Shown here: positions 112 through 10,011 of the stretch, one piece after another
Position numbering within the stretch: the first letter of the stretch is position 1
Layout of the letters: every line of letters begins with the position of its first letter
Source of the DNA: a virus
DNA length: 47,540 nucleotides
Reading direction: 5' to 3' (one strand)
IMG/VR virus record: IMGVR_UViG_3300031857_014260
Coordinates: 1-47,540 of that record
Made by a program: the position numbers and the translations under genes
Notes under the pieces: generated by a model
Databases searched by the model: none
Told to the model about the DNA's origin: nothing
What the model saw: the letters and a program-made list of their open reading frames with translations, nothing else

Positions 112-1524
112 TTAAAAACTAAGTTGACTTCTTAACATAACAGCACGTTCGCCATTTACACGACTACCTGAACTGCCAACTAATGCATCAAACTTTGTGT
201 CTACATAGTTTAACATAAAACGTAGGTTGTCTGTAGCGAACCAAGTGACGCCATATGTCATAGCAGTAGCACGATTAGATTTGCCTGTAGCTACTGAGAT
301 GTCACTAGCATCAAACTCGCTCATACGTACACCAACTTGCCAAGCACCACGTCCACCTTTGTCAGTAGGATTATTTGGTTTGATCCAACCAAATGTACCA
401 TCTTTGTATGCGTGTGATTCACCTGTTAGGTTGTATACAGCTTGAACATAGTATCCATTTATTTTCTGATCGTTACCTGTAGTAGGATCATAATTAAATT
501 GGAATTGCTCACCTTGTACCTTTAGACCGTTGTAGGCAAATGCTGCTTCAAGACCTTGACGTGTTCTTGTTGTGTTGCCTGATAACGCAGAACCTGTGAA
601 CCAACCTGATTGTGTTCGTGCCTCAGTTCTACCGCTAGCTGGTATTACACCACTTTTGATATCACCTGTACTGTATGCTGCTCCTAGGTGTAACACATAG
701 GCCTTGCTACCTTGTAGTTCGGCAACGTTTGTTGTTACGCGACCGATGTAGTCAAATCCGTCATTGGTAGCGTCTTTATTAGCACGACCGCGGCTTAATG
801 CTAAAGCATAAGTTAAGCCAGGTTTAGGAATACCGTGTAACATAAAGCCAGTTTCCTTAGCAGGAATAAACTCACCGTCAGTATTACCAATTAAACTACG
901 CTCCATAAAATCAATATTATTAGAACTAGTTAATTGCTCTAAGCTGAAAGGCATTTTAAATAAACCAAACTGAAATTGCATTTCAGGATTAGCCGCATAG
1001 TTTACCCACATTTCGTCTGCTGTGGTTGTAGTAGAACTTGAACCAGCATCATTACCAAAGTTAGCCAACAACTGATATTTGAAGTCTTTGGCAAACTGTC
1101 CACGAACACCAAATCTAGCACGACGAACTTCTGCTAGGTTCTGATACGAATCTGTGGTTTGACCTGTACCATAATCCGGGGAGTACTGACGATAGTCCAT
1201 ATGTAGTCGACCTGTAAGCTGGATGGTATTGTTGCCATCTTTGCTTTTGAGTCCGATTCCGTTTTCTGTAACTGAACCATCATTAGCCTTTGTAAATCTT
1301 GAATTGTTGTTATCACGTAAATCTTTATCAATACGAGCAGCATTGAACTGTTTGTTCTCTAAACGCTCAGTGTGTGCTTCAATTTTTGTATTGTACTCTT
1401 GTTGAGTAATAATACCTTTTTGCAGTAAAAGATCAAGTGTATCTTTGTATTCATCGGCCATGGCCGGCGCCGTAAAGCAAAATGCCAAAGAAGTGGCAAG
1501 TGCTAATTTTGTAAATGTTTTCAT
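112..1524 (-). CDS. Phosphate-selective porin-like outer membrane protein (OprO/OprP family)
   Basis: The 470-residue product has a signal peptide (about 1-23, ending APAMA), then a short helical region containing LLLQKGIITQQEYNTKIE, which is typical just after the signal in the phosphate-selective porin O/P family. The rest is rich in alternating beta-strand sequence and ends in ...RSQLSF, with the terminal Phe expected of an outer-membrane beta-barrel. The predicted role is anion or phosphate entry across the host outer membrane. The start has a good Shine-Dalgarno (AAGGA). It lies directly downstream of pstS on the same strand, separated by a terminator-like hairpin, so a phosphate role is likely. 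It could be a general porin; substrate selectivity cannot be read from the sequence. Confidence 0.8.
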   Translation of the reverse strand: MKTFTKLALATSLAFCFTAPAMADEYKDTLDLLLQKGIITQQEYNTKIEAHTERLENKQFNAARIDKDLRDNNNSRFTKANDGSVTENGIGLKSKDGNNTIQLTGRLHMDYRQYSPDYGTGQTTDSYQNLAEVRRARFGVRGQFAKDFKYQLLANFGNDAGSSSTTTTADEMWVNYAANPEMQFQFGLFKMPFSLEQLTSSNNIDFMERSLIGNTDGEFIPAKETGFMLHGIPKPGLTYALALSRGRANKDATNDGFDYIGRVTTNVAELQGSKAYVLHLGAAYSTGDIKSGVIPASGRTEARTQSGWFTGSALSGNTTRTRQGLEAAFAYNGLKVQGEQFQFNYDPTTGNDQKINGYYVQAVYNLTGESHAYKDGTFGWIKPNNPTDKGGRGAWQVGVRMSEFDASDISVATGKSNRATAMTYGVTWFATDNLRFMLNYVDTKFDALVGSSGSRVNGERAVMLRSQLSF

Positions 1525-1586: not shown

Positions 1587-2612
1587 TTACTTCCAAATTG
1601 GATTGTTGTCTGGGCCTTTTAGATCCCGTTTCCAGTTGTCTTGTACTAGTTTGATAACTGATTGTGGCAAGTGAACATATTCTAAATCTTCACTCATCTT
1701 GCTACCGTTCTTGTAACTCCAGTCAAAGAATTTAAGTACAGCACGACCTGTTAATGCGTCTGACTGTTGTTTATGCATAAGAATGAAACTGGCACCAGTA
1801 ATAGGCCAAGCATCCTTGCCTTTCTGATCTGTTAGTAACAAATACATTCCTGGAGCACTGTTCCAGTCTGCGTTGGCTGCTGCGGCCTTGAATGTGTCAT
1901 CGCTAGGCTGTACAAAATTACCGTCACGATTTTTGACTTGTGCGTGTGGAATCTTGTTGCGCTTGGCATAGGCATACTCCACATAGCCAATGCTGTTCTT
2001 GAGTTGTTGAACTACGGCACTTACACCTTCGTTACCTTTGCCACCTACGCCAACTGGCCATTTCACTGCTGTGCCATCTTTAACTTTATCTGCCCATTCC
2101 TGATTAGTCTTACTTAACCAGTTAGTCCATATAAAGGTTGTACCTGAACCATCACTGCGGTGAACCACAGAGATATTTGCGTTAGGTAATTTAAGTCCTG
2201 GGTTAATTGCTGTGATACTAGGATGATCCCATTTAGTAATCTTGCCCATATAGATATCAGCAATAACGTCTGAGGTAAGTTTAAGTTGTCCGGCACTAAC
2301 ACCATCGATGTTGACGACTGGTACAACTCCTCCAATGATCGCTGGGAATTGCATTAGACCTTCTTTGTCTAATTCATCTTGTTTTAGTGGCATATCACTA
2401 GCACCAAAGTCTACAATCTTAGCTTTGATTTGACGGATGCCACCGCCACTACCAATTGATTGATAATTTAAACCAATACCAGTTGCGGCTTTGTATGCTT
2501 CGGCCCATTTGCTATAGATTGGATATGGAAATGTAGCACCTGCTCCTGTTAGATCGGCTGCTGATGCCAGGGAGGATACTGCTAATAAAACTGTTGCGAT
2601 TAAGTGTCGCAT
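1587..2612 (-). CDS. pstS: Phosphate ABC transporter substrate-binding protein PstS
   Basis: The 341-residue product has a signal peptide (1-18, ending LASA). Mature-protein motifs fit the PstS family: GAGATFPYPIYSKWAEAY near the N-terminus, SIGSGGGIRQI near residue 53 and HRSDGSGTTFIWTNW near residue 150, all of which contribute to the phosphate site. It should bind phosphate in the periplasm and feed the host PstCAB transporter; no permease or ATPase gene is in the window. PstS is a known auxiliary gene of marine T4-like phages. A strong Shine-Dalgarno (AGGAG) precedes the ATG. Three direct repeats resembling a Pho box lie 55-90 bases upstream, suggesting control by host PhoB. Confidence 0.95.
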   Translation of the reverse strand: MRHLIATVLLAVSSLASAADLTGAGATFPYPIYSKWAEAYKAATGIGLNYQSIGSGGGIRQIKAKIVDFGASDMPLKQDELDKEGLMQFPAIIGGVVPVVNIDGVSAGQLKLTSDVIADIYMGKITKWDHPSITAINPGLKLPNANISVVHRSDGSGTTFIWTNWLSKTNQEWADKVKDGTAVKWPVGVGGKGNEGVSAVVQQLKNSIGYVEYAYAKRNKIPHAQVKNRDGNFVQPSDDTFKAAAANADWNSAPGMYLLLTDQKGKDAWPITGASFILMHKQQSDALTGRAVLKFFDWSYKNGSKMSEDLEYVHLPQSVIKLVQDNWKRDLKGPDNNPIWK

Positions 2613-2660: not shown

Positions 2661-2702
2661 TATTTAAACACAAAATGATTACAAGCGTGTTACAAATTAC
2701 AA
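2661..2702 (-). promoter_or_regulatory. Pho-box-like direct repeats upstream of pstS
   Basis: Read on the minus strand, three 7-nt units occur at exact 11-nt spacing: TTGTAAC (2689-2695), TTGTAAT (2678-2684) and TTGTGTT (2667-2673), with a further TTGTAAT at 2696-2702. A TAAATATT element that could be a -10 box follows the last unit. The 7+4 periodicity is that of PhoB-binding Pho boxes. The same arrangement is found upstream of the plcP-like gene, which argues for real regulation. Confidence 0.6.
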
Positions 2703-2723: not shown

Positions 2724-3443
2724 TTATGACCAATACTTGTTATGAATTGATTTTTTCCAGTATGACGGATTTTTTAAATTGATAAAATTTTTTATCATGT
2801 ACCATGCCATTCCAAAATATCCCATTTTTTTAAATCTGCGACTATCTTGGCCATAATAGTGATTAATGATTTTAAATTTTTTCACATCGTATTTTGATGA
2901 TAAAAAAAAGTCTTCTGATGTTGTGAACTGCTCAGGAAATCCCCCAAACTCGTCAAACTTGTCTTTTCTAGTAAGCATAAAAGCACCTACCGCAAAGGGT
3001 GAAAAGTATTTCAAAATGTGATTAAGTTGATTGAAAATGAAGAAACTAAGTTCTGCTCTCCAGTCATTTTCATAGCATCTAATATTAGCACCTATTAAGT
3101 CTAAATTATCCAATTCAAATTCAAACACAGCATCTCGAATTGTAGAGCTGTCAAAAAATATTACATCAGCATCTATAAACAATATGTAAGGTGTAGTAAC
3201 TAATTTAGCTGCACTGTTTCTTGCCATAGCAACAGGTCCACCGTCAATGATCTCTACATTAAGAAATGAACGATTGTTTGTTATTATATCTCTAGTACTA
3301 TCAGTTGAACAATCGGCAATAATTATTCTTGTATTGCCTACCTTTTGTAGTCGTAATGAATCAAGCAACTGGCCTATATATCGTTCTTCATTTTTACAAG
3401 GAATTATAATAGTGAGTTTTTCACTTAGGATATTTTTTGACAT
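2724..3443 (-). CDS. Family 2 glycosyltransferase
   Basis: The 239-residue GT-A fold protein starts with LTIIIPCKNEERYIGQLLDSL (about 9-29), continues with IIIADCSTDSTRDI, and has the metal-binding DxD motif in LFIDADVIFF (about 93-102). These are hallmarks of GT2, which transfers sugar from a nucleotide-sugar to an acceptor. There is no clear transmembrane segment, but basic and aromatic C-terminal sequence could associate with membrane. It is the last gene of the operon led by the plcP-like gene. In phosphate-starved alphaproteobacteria PlcP makes diacylglycerol that a glycosyltransferase (Agt) turns into glycolipid, so that role is a candidate. A wall or surface glycan acceptor is the alternative. 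The start has an AAGGA Shine-Dalgarno. Confidence 0.8.
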   Translation of the reverse strand: MSKNILSEKLTIIIPCKNEERYIGQLLDSLRLQKVGNTRIIIADCSTDSTRDIITNNRSFLNVEIIDGGPVAMARNSAAKLVTTPYILFIDADVIFFDSSTIRDAVFEFELDNLDLIGANIRCYENDWRAELSFFIFNQLNHILKYFSPFAVGAFMLTRKDKFDEFGGFPEQFTTSEDFFLSSKYDVKKFKIINHYYGQDSRRFKKMGYFGMAWYMIKNFINLKNPSYWKKSIHNKYWS

Positions 3444-3598
3444 TTTCCTTCTACCTTAAAATTTTCAAACTTTAACCAATAGGTCATTGACTGTAATGTC
3501 TGCTCACATTGCTGCTGTGTTTGGAATTGTAATGTGATCTTTCCGGGTATATCTTTAGGATCGTTTATGTGTACTGCTATCAATATCATCATCCACAT
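3425..3598 (-). CDS. Small membrane-anchored or exported protein, MW-hydrophobic/2-Cys family
   Basis: The 57-residue product starting at MWMMILIAVHI has one hydrophobic N-terminal segment, then a polar region with the pattern F.T...C...L...V.G.C. It overlaps the 3' end of the plcP-like gene by 44 bases and the 5' end of the glycosyltransferase gene, so it is translationally embedded in that operon. A longer start at 3655 is open but would lie deeper inside plcP. A relative with the same pattern is encoded at 42511-42708, which supports both as real genes. The function is unknown; a lipoprotein-like or inner-membrane location is likely. Confidence 0.65.
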   Translation of the reverse strand: MWMMILIAVHINDPKDIPGKITLQFQTQQQCEQTLQSMTYWLKFENFKVEGKCQKIS

Positions 3599-4352
3599 TG
3601 TCTGAATCCTTAGTCCAAAATACAATTTCCCAACGACCGTCATGATGTTCGACAAGAGCCGTACAGCTTTCTACCCAATCACCGTCATTCATATATGTTA
3701 CACCATCAATCTCTTTTATTTCAGCATTGTGTATATGACCGCATATTACTCCGTCATATCCTCGTTTTTTACAATAAGCTGCTAGAGTTTTTTCAAATTC
3801 AAAAATAAAATCAACAGCTTTTTTTACCTTGTGCTTAAGGAAACGGCTAAGACTAAAATAGCCAATACCCATTCTATGTAGGATCCAATTAACTCTATTA
3901 TTAACTGATAAGATGAAGTCATAGGCTTTGTCTCCTAAAAATGTTAGCCAAGGTGCTATACGAGTTATGCCATCAAATAAATCTCCGTGAATTACTAGAT
4001 AACGTTTTCCGTCTTTGCCAATATGATCATATTGATTACACACTGTGATCATATCAAAATTAATATTGTAATTAAGGAATGGTCGTATGAATTCGTCGTG
4101 ATTACCTAAGACGTAGATTATCTTGGTATCTCTTTTTGCGTGACCTAATACTCGACGAACTACATTAGTATGACTTTGTTTCCAACGCCATTTATTTTGT
4201 TTTATTTTCCATCCGTCTATTATGTCACCTACTAAGTAAAGTTGTTCACAGCTATTATGTTTTAAAAAATTATTTAAAATCTGTGCTTTACTATCTTTCG
4301 CTCCAAGATGCACATCTGATATAAAAATACTTCTGTAAGTTTTTGTGTACAT
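3555..4352 (-). CDS. plcP: PlcP-like phospholipase C (LpxH-related metallophosphoesterase)
   Basis: The 265-residue calcineurin-like phosphoesterase shows the metal-site motifs in order: FISDVHLG (D-x-H), YLVGDIIDGW (GD), VLGNHDEF (GNHD), VIHGD and VICGHIHNAEI (GHxH). The C-terminal stretch NDGDWVESCTALVEHHDG is, from memory of the family, characteristic of the alphaproteobacterial group often annotated as UDP-2,3-diacylglucosamine diphosphatase that includes PlcP, the phospholipase C used for lipid remodelling under phosphate starvation. The start used is the ATG at 4352; an upstream TTG at 4370 lies inside the Pho-box-like repeats and is less likely. The likely reaction is release of the phospho-head group from membrane phospholipids. 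LpxH activity is the main alternative. Confidence 0.8.
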   Translation of the reverse strand: MYTKTYRSIFISDVHLGAKDSKAQILNNFLKHNSCEQLYLVGDIIDGWKIKQNKWRWKQSHTNVVRRVLGHAKRDTKIIYVLGNHDEFIRPFLNYNINFDMITVCNQYDHIGKDGKRYLVIHGDLFDGITRIAPWLTFLGDKAYDFILSVNNRVNWILHRMGIGYFSLSRFLKHKVKKAVDFIFEFEKTLAAYCKKRGYDGVICGHIHNAEIKEIDGVTYMNDGDWVESCTALVEHHDGRWEIVFWTKDSDNVDDDIDSSTHKRS

Positions 4353-4353
4353 A

Positions 4354-4392
4354 ATCTTATTTAAACACAAAATGATTACAGCAGTATTACAA
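4354..4392 (-). promoter_or_regulatory. Pho-box-like direct repeats upstream of the plcP operon
   Basis: On the minus strand three 7-nt units occur at exact 11-nt spacing: TTGTAAT (4386-4392), CTGTAAT (4375-4381) and TTGTGTT (4364-4370), followed by TAAATAAG. The block is nearly identical to the one upstream of pstS, including the spacer CATT and the trailing TTTAAATA. This places the plcP-like gene, the small protein and the glycosyltransferase in a predicted phosphate regulon. Confidence 0.6.
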
Positions 4393-5781: not shown

Positions 5782-5805
5782 TAAAACAGGGTCCGAAGAC
5801 CCTGT
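5782..5805 (-). terminator. Rho-independent terminator of the tmRNA gene
   Basis: A perfect 8-bp stem with a TTCG tetraloop (5798-5805 with 5786-5793 on the minus strand) is followed by TTTTAC. It lies immediately after the coding piece of the permuted tmRNA and would end that transcript. Confidence 0.85.
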
Positions 5806-5844
5806 AACTATTTTTGGTAATAAGGCATAGCTGCCCCAGCATGG

Positions 5845-5880
5845 CTATCAAGCAGCCATTGCGTAGTAACTGTCGTTTGC
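5845..5880 (-). other. tmRNA tag reading frame (ANDSYYAMAA)
   Basis: The resume codon GCA at 5880 begins ten codons, ANDSYYAMAA, ended by tandem stops TGA TAG. With the tRNA-borne Ala the tag would be AANDSYYAMAA. It is close to the gammaproteobacterial AANDENYALAA but ends AMAA rather than ALAA. It should mark proteins from stalled ribosomes for ClpXP or ClpAP; the Leu-to-Met change is next to the C-terminal residues that ClpX reads. Confidence 0.9.
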
Positions 5881-5912
5881 AGTTATAGTTTTGCTTCTTT
5901 TACGGAGATCGC

Positions 5913-6062
5913 CTACCGTGTAGATCCTTTGAATACTTGCTCGTCAATCGATACTATTTCCGGCCCATCAATAAGATTCTCTTTGAACTCTTCCAACCAT
6001 TCGTTAAATAACGAATAGTTCCACAAGTTTAAGGGAGGTATATAATTATCCCATTGATCCAT
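5913..6062 (-). CDS. Candidate small ORF overlapping the tmRNA intervening segment and coding piece
   Basis: A 49-codon ORF starts at ATG 6062, 12 bases past the CCA end of the acceptor piece. It crosses the whole intervening segment and ends inside the coding piece upstream of the tag. It reads MDQWDNYIPPLNLWNYSL and onward: acidic, with three Trp and a normal protein-like composition. The upstream AAAAAGA is a poor Shine-Dalgarno. An ORF this long can arise by chance at this GC content, so its status is open. If translated, ribosomes would compete with tmRNA processing. Confidence 0.35.
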   Translation of the reverse strand: MDQWDNYIPPLNLWNYSLFNEWLEEFKENLIDGPEIVSIDEQVFKGSTR

Positions 6063-6171
6063 AAAAATCTTTTTGGTGGACCGGCCGGGTACCGCCCCCG
6101 GGTCTTGTCCAATCTTTCTTCTTAGGCGTTGTACTACAATATCTTCCTACCTTTAGAATAACCTAAAGATA

Positions 6172-6285
6172 TTATTTCTTGCGAGATATCCGGATATTTT
6201 TATTGTACAAATATGTAGTGAAACAAATGCTTAAAATCACACTAACTATTAATACTACTATCCAGATTATTAATGACTTGATCAT
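6172..6285 (-). CDS. Tiny single-pass membrane protein
   Basis: The 37-codon ORF begins MIKSLIIWIVVLIVSVIL, one long hydrophobic segment, followed by a short basic tail (NKNIRISRKK), predicting N-out/C-in topology. It directly precedes the tmRNA acceptor piece and follows another tiny membrane protein with only a few bases between them (stop 6288, start 6285). The function is unknown. A holin-like, toxin-like or accessory membrane role is possible but unsupported. Confidence 0.6.
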   Translation of the reverse strand: MIKSLIIWIVVLIVSVILSICFTTYLYNKNIRISRKK

Positions 6286-6655: not shown

Positions 6656-7192
6656 TTAGCAAAGATTGGCTACGATTTCTTCAAAACTGTAATTTACCCA
6701 ATTGTAACTGATAAACTTTCTAGTTCCTGGATTTGGGCTGTACACTGAATGAATTTTACTTACATTAAGAACATATGCATCATTCTTTTCAGCAGTGAAT
6801 TGTGCAACTTCTTCTACATCGTCAATTCGATAAAGATTTGCATTTTCTTGTCCTGGATACAATTTTGCTGCTGCAGATTCTTTTGGTATATGAAAGCTAG
6901 TTGTCGAACCATTTGGTTCAAAATAATAATTGATACAACATTTAATAGTATGGTCAACATGCGGATCTAGCAATCCCTGTCCTGTTACTTCTGTAATAAA
7001 TGCTCCTTCAGGACGAATTTTACAAAATGGTTTTGGATGTAGGGATATAAATTTTTCTAAGTTAGTAGGCATGTAGTAATGAATACCTGTTCCGTTTTCT
7101 TTCGAAACGAACTCAGTAAAAAGATCCCCTTTGAGACTTTCATAATCAAATGGATATATCTCTAAATGAAATTTGTGAAAATAGTTGTTCAT
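6656..7192 (-). CDS. 2OG-Fe(II) oxygenase-like protein 1
   Basis: The 178-residue protein has a possible facial triad: PHVDHT (His78, Asp80) and SKIHSVY (His148), with Arg158 in GTRKFISYNW as the likely 2-oxoglutarate ligand. Spacing fits the double-stranded beta-helix of 2OG-Fe(II) oxygenases. The substrate is unknown. The start has an AAGGA Shine-Dalgarno and an AATAAATATC late-promoter-like motif 19 bases upstream. It is divergent from the plus-strand operon that encodes two further proteins of this kind. Confidence 0.65.
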   Translation of the reverse strand: MNNYFHKFHLEIYPFDYESLKGDLFTEFVSKENGTGIHYYMPTNLEKFISLHPKPFCKIRPEGAFITEVTGQGLLDPHVDHTIKCCINYYFEPNGSTTSFHIPKESAAAKLYPGQENANLYRIDDVEEVAQFTAEKNDAYVLNVSKIHSVYSPNPGTRKFISYNWVNYSFEEIVANLC

Positions 7193-7210
7193 AGTATTCC
7201 TTGTTTTTGA

Positions 7211-7216
7211 TATTTA
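7211..7216 (-). promoter_or_regulatory. T4-like late promoter candidate (AATAAATATC)
   Basis: The RATAAATA motif on the minus strand is 19 bases before the divergent oxygenase-like gene. Confidence 0.5.
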
Positions 7217-7257
7217 TTGTTTTTTTTGAGCTCTAAAAATTTAAAAGTAAATAAGGT

Positions 7258-7818
7258 ATGAACAAATTTTGTAGAAAAATTCAATTACCTTTTGAAGTAA
7301 ATCTTAAAAATTTTCCTCCGACAAATTACGAAGAACGAGTGTACATGATTAGACCGCCCTGGTCTACTATTGATAAAAAATTGATTAGTTTTTTATCTTC
7401 AAAAAATCTTCATGTAAAATTTTATGAAATTTTTTACACTCCGCCACAACAAGAATTATACATTCATGTGGATAGAAATGTCTACAGCAATATGACCAAA
7501 TTAAATTTTTGTATCTGTGATCCGTTGAGTGTAATGAACTGGTTTACCCCTAAAGAGCAGTTTAAGAAAAAGATGGCTTCTCAAACTATGCTCAAAACTG
7601 ATTATTTAAGATTCAAATCTGAAGAAGTTGATTTAGAATATACAGAGTGTATTGCAGGTTGGTATTTGGTTAATGCTGGAATTCCGCATAATGCAACTAA
7701 TTTTACCGACAAACAAAGATGGACTCTTAGTTACACTTTACTTGATTTAAATAATGATCCTGCAGATCATTTAGAATTTGATCGAGCCCTTGAAATTTTT
7801 AAAGAATGCCTTATATGA
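7258..7818 (+). CDS. 2OG-Fe(II) oxygenase-like protein 2
   Basis: The 186-residue protein has IHVDRN (His70, Asp72), AGIPHNAT (His144) and KQRWTLSY (Arg154), the HxD...H...R order of 2OG-Fe(II) oxygenases. It is the first gene of a plus-strand operon whose next gene starts within its last codons (7806). The Shine-Dalgarno is weak (AAGG). A role as hydroxylase of a peptide or small molecule is inferred; it may lack activity. It is distinct in sequence from its two neighbours but shares the motif layout. Confidence 0.6.
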   Translation: MNKFCRKIQLPFEVNLKNFPPTNYEERVYMIRPPWSTIDKKLISFLSSKNLHVKFYEIFYTPPQQELYIHVDRNVYSNMTKLNFCICDPLSVMNWFTPKEQFKKKMASQTMLKTDYLRFKSEEVDLEYTECIAGWYLVNAGIPHNATNFTDKQRWTLSYTLLDLNNDPADHLEFDRALEIFKECLI

Positions 7819-8357
7819 AAAACTTTAGACATATTGAAATTAATAATTTACAAATTATAACAGAAAAAGCTTTAAAGGTAATAGAGGATGGCGGTTTACC
7901 TTCTCATACTCACCTTTACTACTTAGACGACTATAATTTTTTGCCAGATAGATTTAAAAAAATTCCAGAGTTAGCTGAAGAAATGAAACGATTAGGTTGG
8001 TATGATTATTGGATCGGAACAGCCATTGTGGTTAACTATCAAGATCTTCCTATACATCAAGATACTGGTGATTTTGAATACAGTTTAAATTTACCAATTA
8101 AGAACACTAAAGATACTTACACTGCATTTTATGAAGTGTCGGCACCTGCCACAATGAAAGTTGTACCCAACACATCTGTAACATACATGAGTTTTGATCC
8201 AGAGATCAGTACCCTTATTGAAAAAGTTGAAATAATTCAGCCTACTTTATTAAATGTAAAAACTCCGCACAATGTAGTATTAAAAACAACTAACCTACCA
8301 AGAATTACTATAGCTCTTCGATTAGGCAAAAACTTTAAATTAGAAAGTGAACAATGA
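7806..8357 (+). CDS. 2OG-Fe(II) oxygenase-like protein 3 (aspartyl/asparaginyl hydroxylase type)
   Basis: The 183-residue protein has LPIHQDTGDF (His84, Asp86), KTPHNVV (His155) and NLPRITIALRL (Arg166). IHxD followed by a long beta section and PHxV is reminiscent of small phage aspartyl-hydroxylase-like oxygenases. It overlaps the gene before by 13 bases and the SDR gene after by 4 (ATGA), so the three are translationally coupled. The substrate is unknown. Confidence 0.65.
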   Translation: MPYMKNFRHIEINNLQIITEKALKVIEDGGLPSHTHLYYLDDYNFLPDRFKKIPELAEEMKRLGWYDYWIGTAIVVNYQDLPIHQDTGDFEYSLNLPIKNTKDTYTAFYEVSAPATMKVVPNTSVTYMSFDPEISTLIEKVEIIQPTLLNVKTPHNVVLKTTNLPRITIALRLGKNFKLESEQ

Positions 8358-8920
8358 GAACATTAGCCATTGTTGGTAATAGTACTCTAGCAAGATCGTT
8401 CATAAAAAAATATCAAGATAAATTTTCTATCAGTACATTCTTTAGACCAGATTATGATATTTCAGATAAGGAATCTTGTCAAACATTAATATCAGAATTA
8501 AACAAGTTTGATCTAGTTGTTCTTACCGCTGGTATCATGTCTTCAGATTTATGGGAAACTTATCTTACTAATACTGTTGGTACAAATTACATCGCTCACG
8601 CTTTATACGAATCTTCTCAAGTTGACAGAGTTATCGTCGTTAGCAGTTATGCTGGAACTTGGACAAGTTGGCCTAATATTGAAAAAGATCGATTGTTCTA
8701 TAATTCTAGCAAACAGGCTGTTACTAATTTTTTAATGTCAATGAGCCATAGTGGAACCAGTAATACTAAAGTCACTGCATTTGATCCATCAGCTTTTGTA
8801 AGTAATATGAATCCATCTATGGGTATGAAGATAGATCATGTAATTGATACATTATACTACCTTTGTACTCTGCCCAGCGGCATAGATGTTTTAAATATTA
8901 AAATTAAGAAATCACAATGA
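8354..8920 (+). CDS. Short-chain dehydrogenase/reductase
   Basis: The 188-residue Rossmann protein starts TLAIVGNSTLARSFI, an atypical glycine-poor version of the nucleotide-binding motif. It continues with VVLTAGIM (equivalent of NNAG) and carries the catalytic VVSSYAG Ser and YNSSK (YxxxK). It is shorter than typical SDRs (about 250), losing part of the C-terminal substrate region. It overlaps both neighbours by 4 bases in ATGA junctions, so it is part of the oxygenase/radical SAM operon, perhaps oxidising or reducing a product of those enzymes. Confidence 0.75.
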   Translation: MRTLAIVGNSTLARSFIKKYQDKFSISTFFRPDYDISDKESCQTLISELNKFDLVVLTAGIMSSDLWETYLTNTVGTNYIAHALYESSQVDRVIVVSSYAGTWTSWPNIEKDRLFYNSSKQAVTNFLMSMSHSGTSNTKVTAFDPSAFVSNMNPSMGMKIDHVIDTLYYLCTLPSGIDVLNIKIKKSQ

Positions 8921-10011
8921 CTCCATACTTATTTGATAGCATAGAATGGGAAATTACATCTGCTTGTAATGCAGCTTGTCCTCAATGTCCTAGAAATTAT
9001 TACGGTAGTTATACATGGCCTAATCTTCCTATTGTTCAAATTGACCTAGACTGGGTTAAGAAATATTTGCCAGAATCTGTTTGGTTATCAATGAGACGTA
9101 TTGATTTCTGCGGAACCTACGGCGATCCAATTATGAATAATAATTTAATATCTATTATTGAATGGATTAAAACTGTTAATCCTAAAGTTAAAATAGAAAT
9201 TAAAACTAATGGCGGAATTAGAGATAATCATTGGTGGAAAAAATTAGCCAGTGTGTTATCAGATAAAGATCATGTTGTGTTTGGAATTGACGGTCTTGAA
9301 GATACTAATCATCTGTATAGAAGAGGAGTAAATTACGAGAAGGTAATAGAAAATGCAAAGTCTTTTATTTCTGCTGGCGGCAAGGCCTACTGGAGTTTTA
9401 TAGTTTTCAAACATAACCAGCACCAAGTTGACGAAGCTAGATTGTTATCTAAAGAACTTGGATTTCAAGATATTATTGTAAAAAAGACATGGAGATTTTT
9501 TAATAAAAATCATGAATATCAAGATAGGTATGCAGTATTGTCAAAAGATGAAAAAGTAGAATACTACTTAGAAATGCCTTCTAACTCTGATTATATTAAC
9601 GAAGGCTATCAAACAATAAAATTTTTAGATAAAAAATACAATAACTTTAAAAATTATTTACAAACCACTGAAATAAACTGCCACGAAAAAGCAGCTAAAC
9701 AAATTTACATCAGCGCCGAAGGACTGGTATTTCCCTGTGGGTGGATACATGATCGTATGTATGGATACGAAGCTGAACAGCACAGTGATCACGATAAATT
9801 ATACGATATTATTGATCGTGCTGGAGGCATGAAAATGTTGAATCTAAATTATAGTAATTTGAATAGTATTGTTTCGGGCGAGTTTTTTAGACTGTTTCAG
9901 GACAGTTGGACAAATAACAGCAGATTAGAGAGATGCAGTTTGATTTGTGGTACTGAGCTAAATGGCATAAAATCTCAAAATCAGCATAACAGCACTCTTG
10001 AATCAAAATAA
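8917..10011 (+). CDS. Radical SAM protein with C-terminal SPASM/twitch-like cysteines
   Basis: The 364-residue protein has the CxxxCxxC motif at Cys17, Cys21 and Cys24 (CNAACPQC) for the [4Fe-4S] cluster that cleaves S-adenosylmethionine. FCGTYGDP follows as the likely SAM-contact loop. The C-terminal third has further cysteines: INCHEKAA, VFPCGW and RCSLICGTE, resembling an auxiliary-cluster (SPASM or twitch) domain. Such enzymes often modify ribosomal peptides or sugars. The gene is coupled to the SDR gene before it and followed after 22 bases by a gene for a 10-cysteine mini-protein, which makes a peptide substrate worth testing. Confidence 0.8.
   Translation: MTPYLFDSIEWEITSACNAACPQCPRNYYGSYTWPNLPIVQIDLDWVKKYLPESVWLSMRRIDFCGTYGDPIMNNNLISIIEWIKTVNPKVKIEIKTNGGIRDNHWWKKLASVLSDKDHVVFGIDGLEDTNHLYRRGVNYEKVIENAKSFISAGGKAYWSFIVFKHNQHQVDEARLLSKELGFQDIIVKKTWRFFNKNHEYQDRYAVLSKDEKVEYYLEMPSNSDYINEGYQTIKFLDKKYNNFKNYLQTTEINCHEKAAKQIYISAEGLVFPCGWIHDRMYGYEAEQHSDHDKLYDIIDRAGGMKMLNLNYSNLNSIVSGEFFRLFQDSWTNNSRLERCSLICGTELNGIKSQNQHNSTLESK

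Follow-up and report, generated by a model that had tools for sequence, protein, structure and literature searches.

The window, that is the whole 47.5-kb stretch of DNA analysed here, is a viral contig, from an aquatic phage, that encodes a ribonucleotide reductase, an endolysin and virion structural proteins. On its minus strand, five genes follow one another in the order of transcription: plcP, a small ORF (sORF) of 57 aa, a GT2-family glycosyltransferase gene, pstS and a porin gene (Table 1). The first three form one overlapping run, since the sORF overlaps both of its neighbours, and the whole island is laid out as Pho box, plcP, sORF, GT2, Pho box, pstS, porin. The esterase and glycosyltransferase (GT) genes reported in an earlier note, made from the sequence alone, are both present as minus-strand ORFs. 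Both are under purifying selection, with dN/dS values of ~0.08 for plcP and ~0.06 for the GT gene, as determined against one close relative. Elsewhere in the window (6656-10011), three small proteins left unassigned are clustered with one SDR-like and one radical SAM/SPASM protein.

Table 1. Features of the plcP-GT2-pstS-porin island, in window coordinates.
Feature	Position	Strand	Evidence or remark
Pho box 1, TTGTAAT-N4-CTGTAAT	4375..4392	-	upstream of plcP; one of two 11-bp-period dimers in the window
TAAATA element	4358-4363	-	5 bp before the plcP ATG, after Pho box 1
plcP, PlcP-type metallophosphoesterase, 265 aa	3555..4352	-	Pfam PF00149 E 1.7e-12, phylogeny, identities, motifs
sORF, conserved 57-aa protein	3425..3598	-	overlaps the plcP 3' end and the GT gene 5' end
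GT2-family glycosyltransferase (predicted GT-A fold), 239 aa	2724..3443	-	PF00535 E 5.8e-20, AlphaFold2, plcP adjacency
Pho box 2, TTGTAAC-N4-TTGTAAT	2678..2695	-	upstream of pstS
TAAATA element	2661-2666	-	after Pho box 2, pstS side
pstS, phosphate-binding protein of Pst transporter	1587..2612	-	NCBIfam NF008171, 437 bits, above curated cut-off
OprO/OprP-type (phosphate-selective) porin	112..1524	-	PF07396 E 9e-57

The esterase belongs to the PlcP clade

The earlier note had taken the esterase for a PlcP-like enzyme, and this was borne out. It is 55% identical to the PlcP of P. aeruginosa and 48% identical to that of S. meliloti, whereas its identity to LpxH is 20%, over one segment only. A phylogeny, which the note had proposed as a check, was made by maximum likelihood on 74 rows, with E. 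coli LpxH outside. In this tree the phage esterases nest together with the PlcP of P. aeruginosa, the S. meliloti enzyme branches nearer the base and E. coli LpxH is a far outgroup, so that the window esterase lies outside LpxH and inside the clade of characterised PlcPs. The gene of the S. meliloti protein adjoins luxR/luxI-type genes, and we take this protein to be SMc00171, from the sinR-sinI locus. The gene next to that of the P. aeruginosa protein carries a family 1 glycosyltransferase annotation, which matches PA3219-PA3218, the characterised plcP-agt1 pair of this species (PMC8528852). We regard the window esterase as a PlcP-type enzyme, predicted to strip phosphate off membrane lipids.

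In databases, the esterase family is labelled 'UDP-2,3-diacylglucosamine diphosphatase', and the solved folds closest to the window protein are those of LpxH, with no PlcP structure among the matches. An LpxH-like enzyme, or another nucleotide-lipid hydrolase, would yield no diacylglycerol, but such an activity is very unlikely. The calcineurin-like fold and the metal motifs of the dinuclear site are common to LpxH and the phage esterase (in the alignment DxH, GD, GNHD, HGD and GHIH are all intact in the window protein), whereas in place of the E. coli LpxH signature GNRD the window has GNHD, as do all aligned rows except a single one with GNHE. Scores against curated LpxH models were far under the cut-offs (41.5 bits for a cut-off of 134, and 31 bits for a cut-off of 190). 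Together with the tree position and the low, one-segment identity, these scores rule out that the esterase is LpxH itself. Moreover, sister phages have agt-type genes as neighbours of the esterase gene.

Promoter motifs and small elements of the island

The Pho-box-like repeats mentioned in the earlier note are real: they consist of two heptamers 11 bp apart, and are located before plcP (TTGTAAT-actg-CTGTAAT) and before pstS (TTGTAAC-acgc-TTGTAAT). Exactly two heptamer dimers of this period are present in the 47.5-kb window, for 0.05 expected. The Pho consensus published for P. aeruginosa is CTGTCATNNNNCTGTCAT (PMC8528852). A strict box at 100 bp or less from the plcP start was found in 32 of 156 distinct loci, with a period of 11 in all 32 pairs, and boxes are ~160-fold enriched before plcP relative to elsewhere. 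Similarly, pstS is preceded by a box in 26 of 37 related loci. Some of the loci devoid of a strict plcP box have plcP placed behind pstS and the porin gene, which accounts for part of them only. A chance origin of the boxes is ruled out by their number in the window and by their enrichment.

In the window, a TAAATA element follows each box, and the element lies at a fixed distance past the box for 26 of the 35 boxes listed. It may be a PhoB-class -10 element, in which case the plcP mRNA would be almost leaderless, or a late promoter element as in T4-like phages.

The sORF, the product of which starts with MWMMILIAVHINDPKDIPGK, is present in 57 GT2-type and 84 GT4-type loci, with identities of 64-89% among the rows displayed, and is retained between plcP and the GT gene in loci of both types. 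Inspection of related loci also revealed a small RNA motif that likely forms a pseudoknot, AAUCGR-[stem]-GAU-[stem]-CUGGA-YCGUAACCAG (L013:5940-5990, L017:7893-7943, L046:7614-7664 and 37 other related loci). Its position is directly before plcP, past the GT cassette, or ahead of terminators, and the GGA in its hairpin could be a ribosome site. Its variable stem covaries, 43 cells being changed on both sides for a shuffled mean of 13.7. The pattern gave zero matches in the window, and the motif zero matches in Rfam.

GT2 and Agt-like GT4 enzymes share one slot beside plcP

Agt is a GT4 enzyme of GT-B fold, 334 aa long in SAR11 (PMC8231724). The earlier note had placed the window GT in the GT2 family, which stands, and had considered it in terms of a smaller Agt, which does not, the window enzyme being a GT2 with a predicted GT-A fold. 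Its AlphaFold2 model (mean pLDDT 92) has GT2 enzymes of GT-A type as structural neighbours, with Z values of ~20, among which TarS, TarP, WrtF and PcManGT. These neighbours settle the fold, though not the acceptor, and those with known acceptors mostly make polysaccharides, cell-wall glycopolymers and other glycans. Pairwise comparison with P. aeruginosa Agt1 revealed no sequence similarity, and neither the GT4 assignment, nor the GT-B fold, nor the motifs GRVAxEKN and FPSxTDTFG that define Agt are found in the window GT. The PF00535/GT2 assignment, the predicted fold and the absence of similarity to Agt1 thus rule out that it is an Agt. A hydrophobic-moment scan of the window GT gave no decisive membrane-binding helix. 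Its nearest relatives are plcP-adjacent genes of phages and of SAR86, which bears only indirectly on the O-antigen clade named by the earlier note as refuting its reading.

Glycosyltransferases beside plcP were compared over more than 200 viral loci. In a scan with the esterase only, 80 loci were kept among the matches listed, of which two were cut by contig ends. Exactly one GT gene was adjacent to plcP in 77 of the 78 informative loci among these matches, the gene being GT2 in 44 of them and an Agt-like GT4 in the other 33, and one locus had neither. No locus with both was found over all scans. These overall counts contain some contigs fetched twice; when duplicates are removed by counting distinct esterases, there are 83 with GT4, 53 with GT2 downstream, 23 with GT2 upstream and three with none. 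Conversely, a scan with GT2 only gave 71 loci, in 68 of which plcP is adjacent; both gene orders occur, and the two genes frequently overlap. Whole records gave the same picture, GT2 being absent from 11 GT4-type phages, and GT4 from 11 GT2-type phages. The window GT2 therefore fills the slot next to plcP in which sister phages carry an Agt-like GT4.

When the GT type was placed on a tree of 103 esterase rows, a minimum of about 16 changes was counted, a number to be taken as an estimate since the tree was a quick one with many weak branches; at least four of them are forced by strongly supported branches. Alignment of three pairs of loci (L027/L319, L017/L019 and L017/L046) revealed that homology spans plcP, is lost at the GT gene, and comes back at the GT stop codon. 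In two pairs, it also spans the porin gene. This shows that the GT gene is exchanged as a cassette beside a constant plcP.

The GT4-type proteins beside phage plcP are 329-345 aa long, and the one compared with P. aeruginosa Agt1 was 37% identical to it over the full length. Their motifs, mostly SRVSKEKN and FPSxWETFG, are related to those of Agt. However, 78 of 89 phage GT4s have a Glu where the SAR11 enzyme GTcp has its catalytic Asp, and in GTcp an Asp-to-Glu change decreases activity by more than 90% (PMC8231724). The Agt label of the phage GT4s therefore also rests on homology.

Judged by family, one of the two enzymes should be a retaining and the other an inverting glycosyltransferase, which would give opposite anomeric linkages. 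The simplest reading is that both GT2 and GT4 consume the diacylglycerol made by PlcP, and we propose that the GT2 is a diacylglycerol glycosyltransferase that stands in for Agt without being homologous to it. Diacylglycerol is known as a substrate of some GT2 enzymes, such as cyanobacterial MgdA and mycoplasma MG517, both of which are larger than the window GT. GT2 enzymes as a whole take many acceptors, a point against diacylglycerol in particular. A DNA-glycosylating GT was also considered; the linkage to plcP argues against it.

Hosts, proposed role and alternatives

A permuted (two-piece) tmRNA of the beta-proteobacterial type is encoded on the minus strand of the window at 5782-6181 (RF01850, 99.8 bits; RF04321, 122.7 bits), a position missed by ARAGORN. 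The same tmRNA type is present in L020, L027 and L046. It points to a host that is probably a member of the Betaproteobacteria, and probably not SAR11. The host genus is left unnamed, because a tmRNA search of 229 genomes gave one genome only above the cut-off, and PstS matches to genomes reached 62% at most.

In a scan of 84,980 species, with one genome per species, nearly all close relatives of the window GT2 came from SAR86, both single-cell genomes and MAGs, at 57-62% identity. There, the GT2 gene overlaps with a PlcP-type esterase gene, as a pair. In one SAR86 genome (L157:5998-7435), this pair adjoins the gene of a PhoX alkaline phosphatase, and is bordered on its other side by genes for a CMAS-type methyltransferase and a beta-lactamase-fold hydrolase. 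In L238, a further genome from that order, plcP is instead beside a GT4 gene, and a GT4 was present within the flank in 22 of the 41 bacterial plcP loci examined. The GT2-plcP pair beside phoX suggests that lipid remodelling takes place in SAR86.

The earlier note had read the pair as possible phage-encoded membrane lipid remodelling by PlcP and a glycosyltransferase, on the model of bacterial PlcP and Agt. The gene context, the PlcP assignment and the Pho boxes strengthen the remodelling part of this reading, and the view of the GT as a small Agt is abandoned. We think it probable that the window carries a phage-borne, PhoB-responsive island for lipid remodelling and phosphate uptake. The enzyme activities, the diacylglycerol acceptor, the control by PhoB and the benefit to the phage are those that we infer, as follows. 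Upon infection of a phosphate-starved host, the phosphorylated PhoB of the host would turn on both promoters. By the action of the phage PlcP, host phospholipids would yield diacylglycerol as well as a phosphorylated headgroup, the phosphorus of which could feed phage DNA synthesis. The GT2 would glycosylate the diacylglycerol, so as to replace the lost phospholipid by a phosphorus-free membrane lipid, and in this it would do the job of the unrelated GT4 Agt of bacteria and sister phages. PstS and the porin would contribute the uptake of external phosphate. For the family at large, we lean towards the view that aquatic phages carry an exchangeable cassette that writes lipid headgroups, made of a constant plcP and either an Agt-like GT4 or a new class of GT2 diacylglycerol glycosyltransferase; it could yield alpha- or beta-linked glycolipids while phosphorus is mined. 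The GT2-plcP pair is also present in a few SAR86.

Phage glycosyltransferases are usually read as modifying the cell surface, as in pelagimyophages (PMC7029224), and the best PHROG of the window GT is the GtrB-like phrog_841, with a weak match that covers residues 8-58 only (E 8e-5). The GT2 might then modify LPS or O-antigen and merely lie near plcP, the receptor change blocking superinfection. This is improbable given that plcP adjoins 68 of the 71 GT2 loci, which span 34-92% identity and both gene orders, that Agt-like GT4s are strictly excluded from these loci and exchanged in the same slot, and that phoX is nearby in SAR86. With these observations, a proximity of GT2 and plcP due to chance is hard to sustain. 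An advantage of another kind is a less distant prospect, though still an unlikely one: the pair would work as proposed, with a change of membrane charge or receptor, relevant to superinfection or host defence, as its main benefit. The repeated exchange of two unrelated GTs, with the opposite linkages expected from them, suits selection on lipid chemistry, and lipid remodelling alters how susceptible a bacterium is to predators (PMC9457565). However, the Pho boxes and the linkage to pstS and the porin gene point to phosphate, and the scavenging of phosphorus from host lipids is the benefit that we prefer.

Remodelling by PlcP and Agt is established in bacteria (PMC4796936, PMC8528852, PMC9239053). 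The window island resembles the bacterial systems (S. meliloti, Phaeobacter, SAR11, PA3219-PA3218 of P. aeruginosa, Methylosinus) by the adjacency of plcP and a GT gene, by a PhoB-type promoter and by the PlcP clade. It differs from them in that it is phage-borne and has a 57-aa ORF between the two genes, and in that GT2 replaces the GT4 Agt, as in over half of the loci listed in the esterase scan. Among the phosphate genes known from cyanophages and other phages (pstS, phoA, phoD, ugpQ; PMC3037559, PMC10987575), it has pstS in common, and cyanophage pstS is likewise flanked by regulatory signals. What the window island is predicted to add to these is the scavenging of phosphorus from lipids of the host membrane. 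The survey PMC10987575 mentions neither 'plcP' nor 'phospholipid' in its text, and no description of a phage plcP-agt operon was found in the literature searched, which misses most subscription journals. The family is common, relatives of the esterase being encoded by at least 598 viral stretches and those of the GT4 by 438. In the SAR11 phage Mosig, a PlcP-type gene lies beside the phosphate-transporter gene and bears the annotation UDP-2,3-diacylglucosamine hydrolase, and the 'LpxH' label probably hides these genes in surveys of phage genes.

In oligotrophic water, phosphorus is a main factor limiting the production of phages, and the phosphorus genes known in phages import or release environmental phosphate. 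The repeated swapping of two unrelated enzymes beside one gene constitutes a natural experiment, and a function is now proposed for an uncharacterised GT2 clade common to phages and SAR86. If the proposal is true, host membrane lipid would be a store of phosphorus under phage control, and infected, phosphate-starved cells would be expected to switch to glycolipids.
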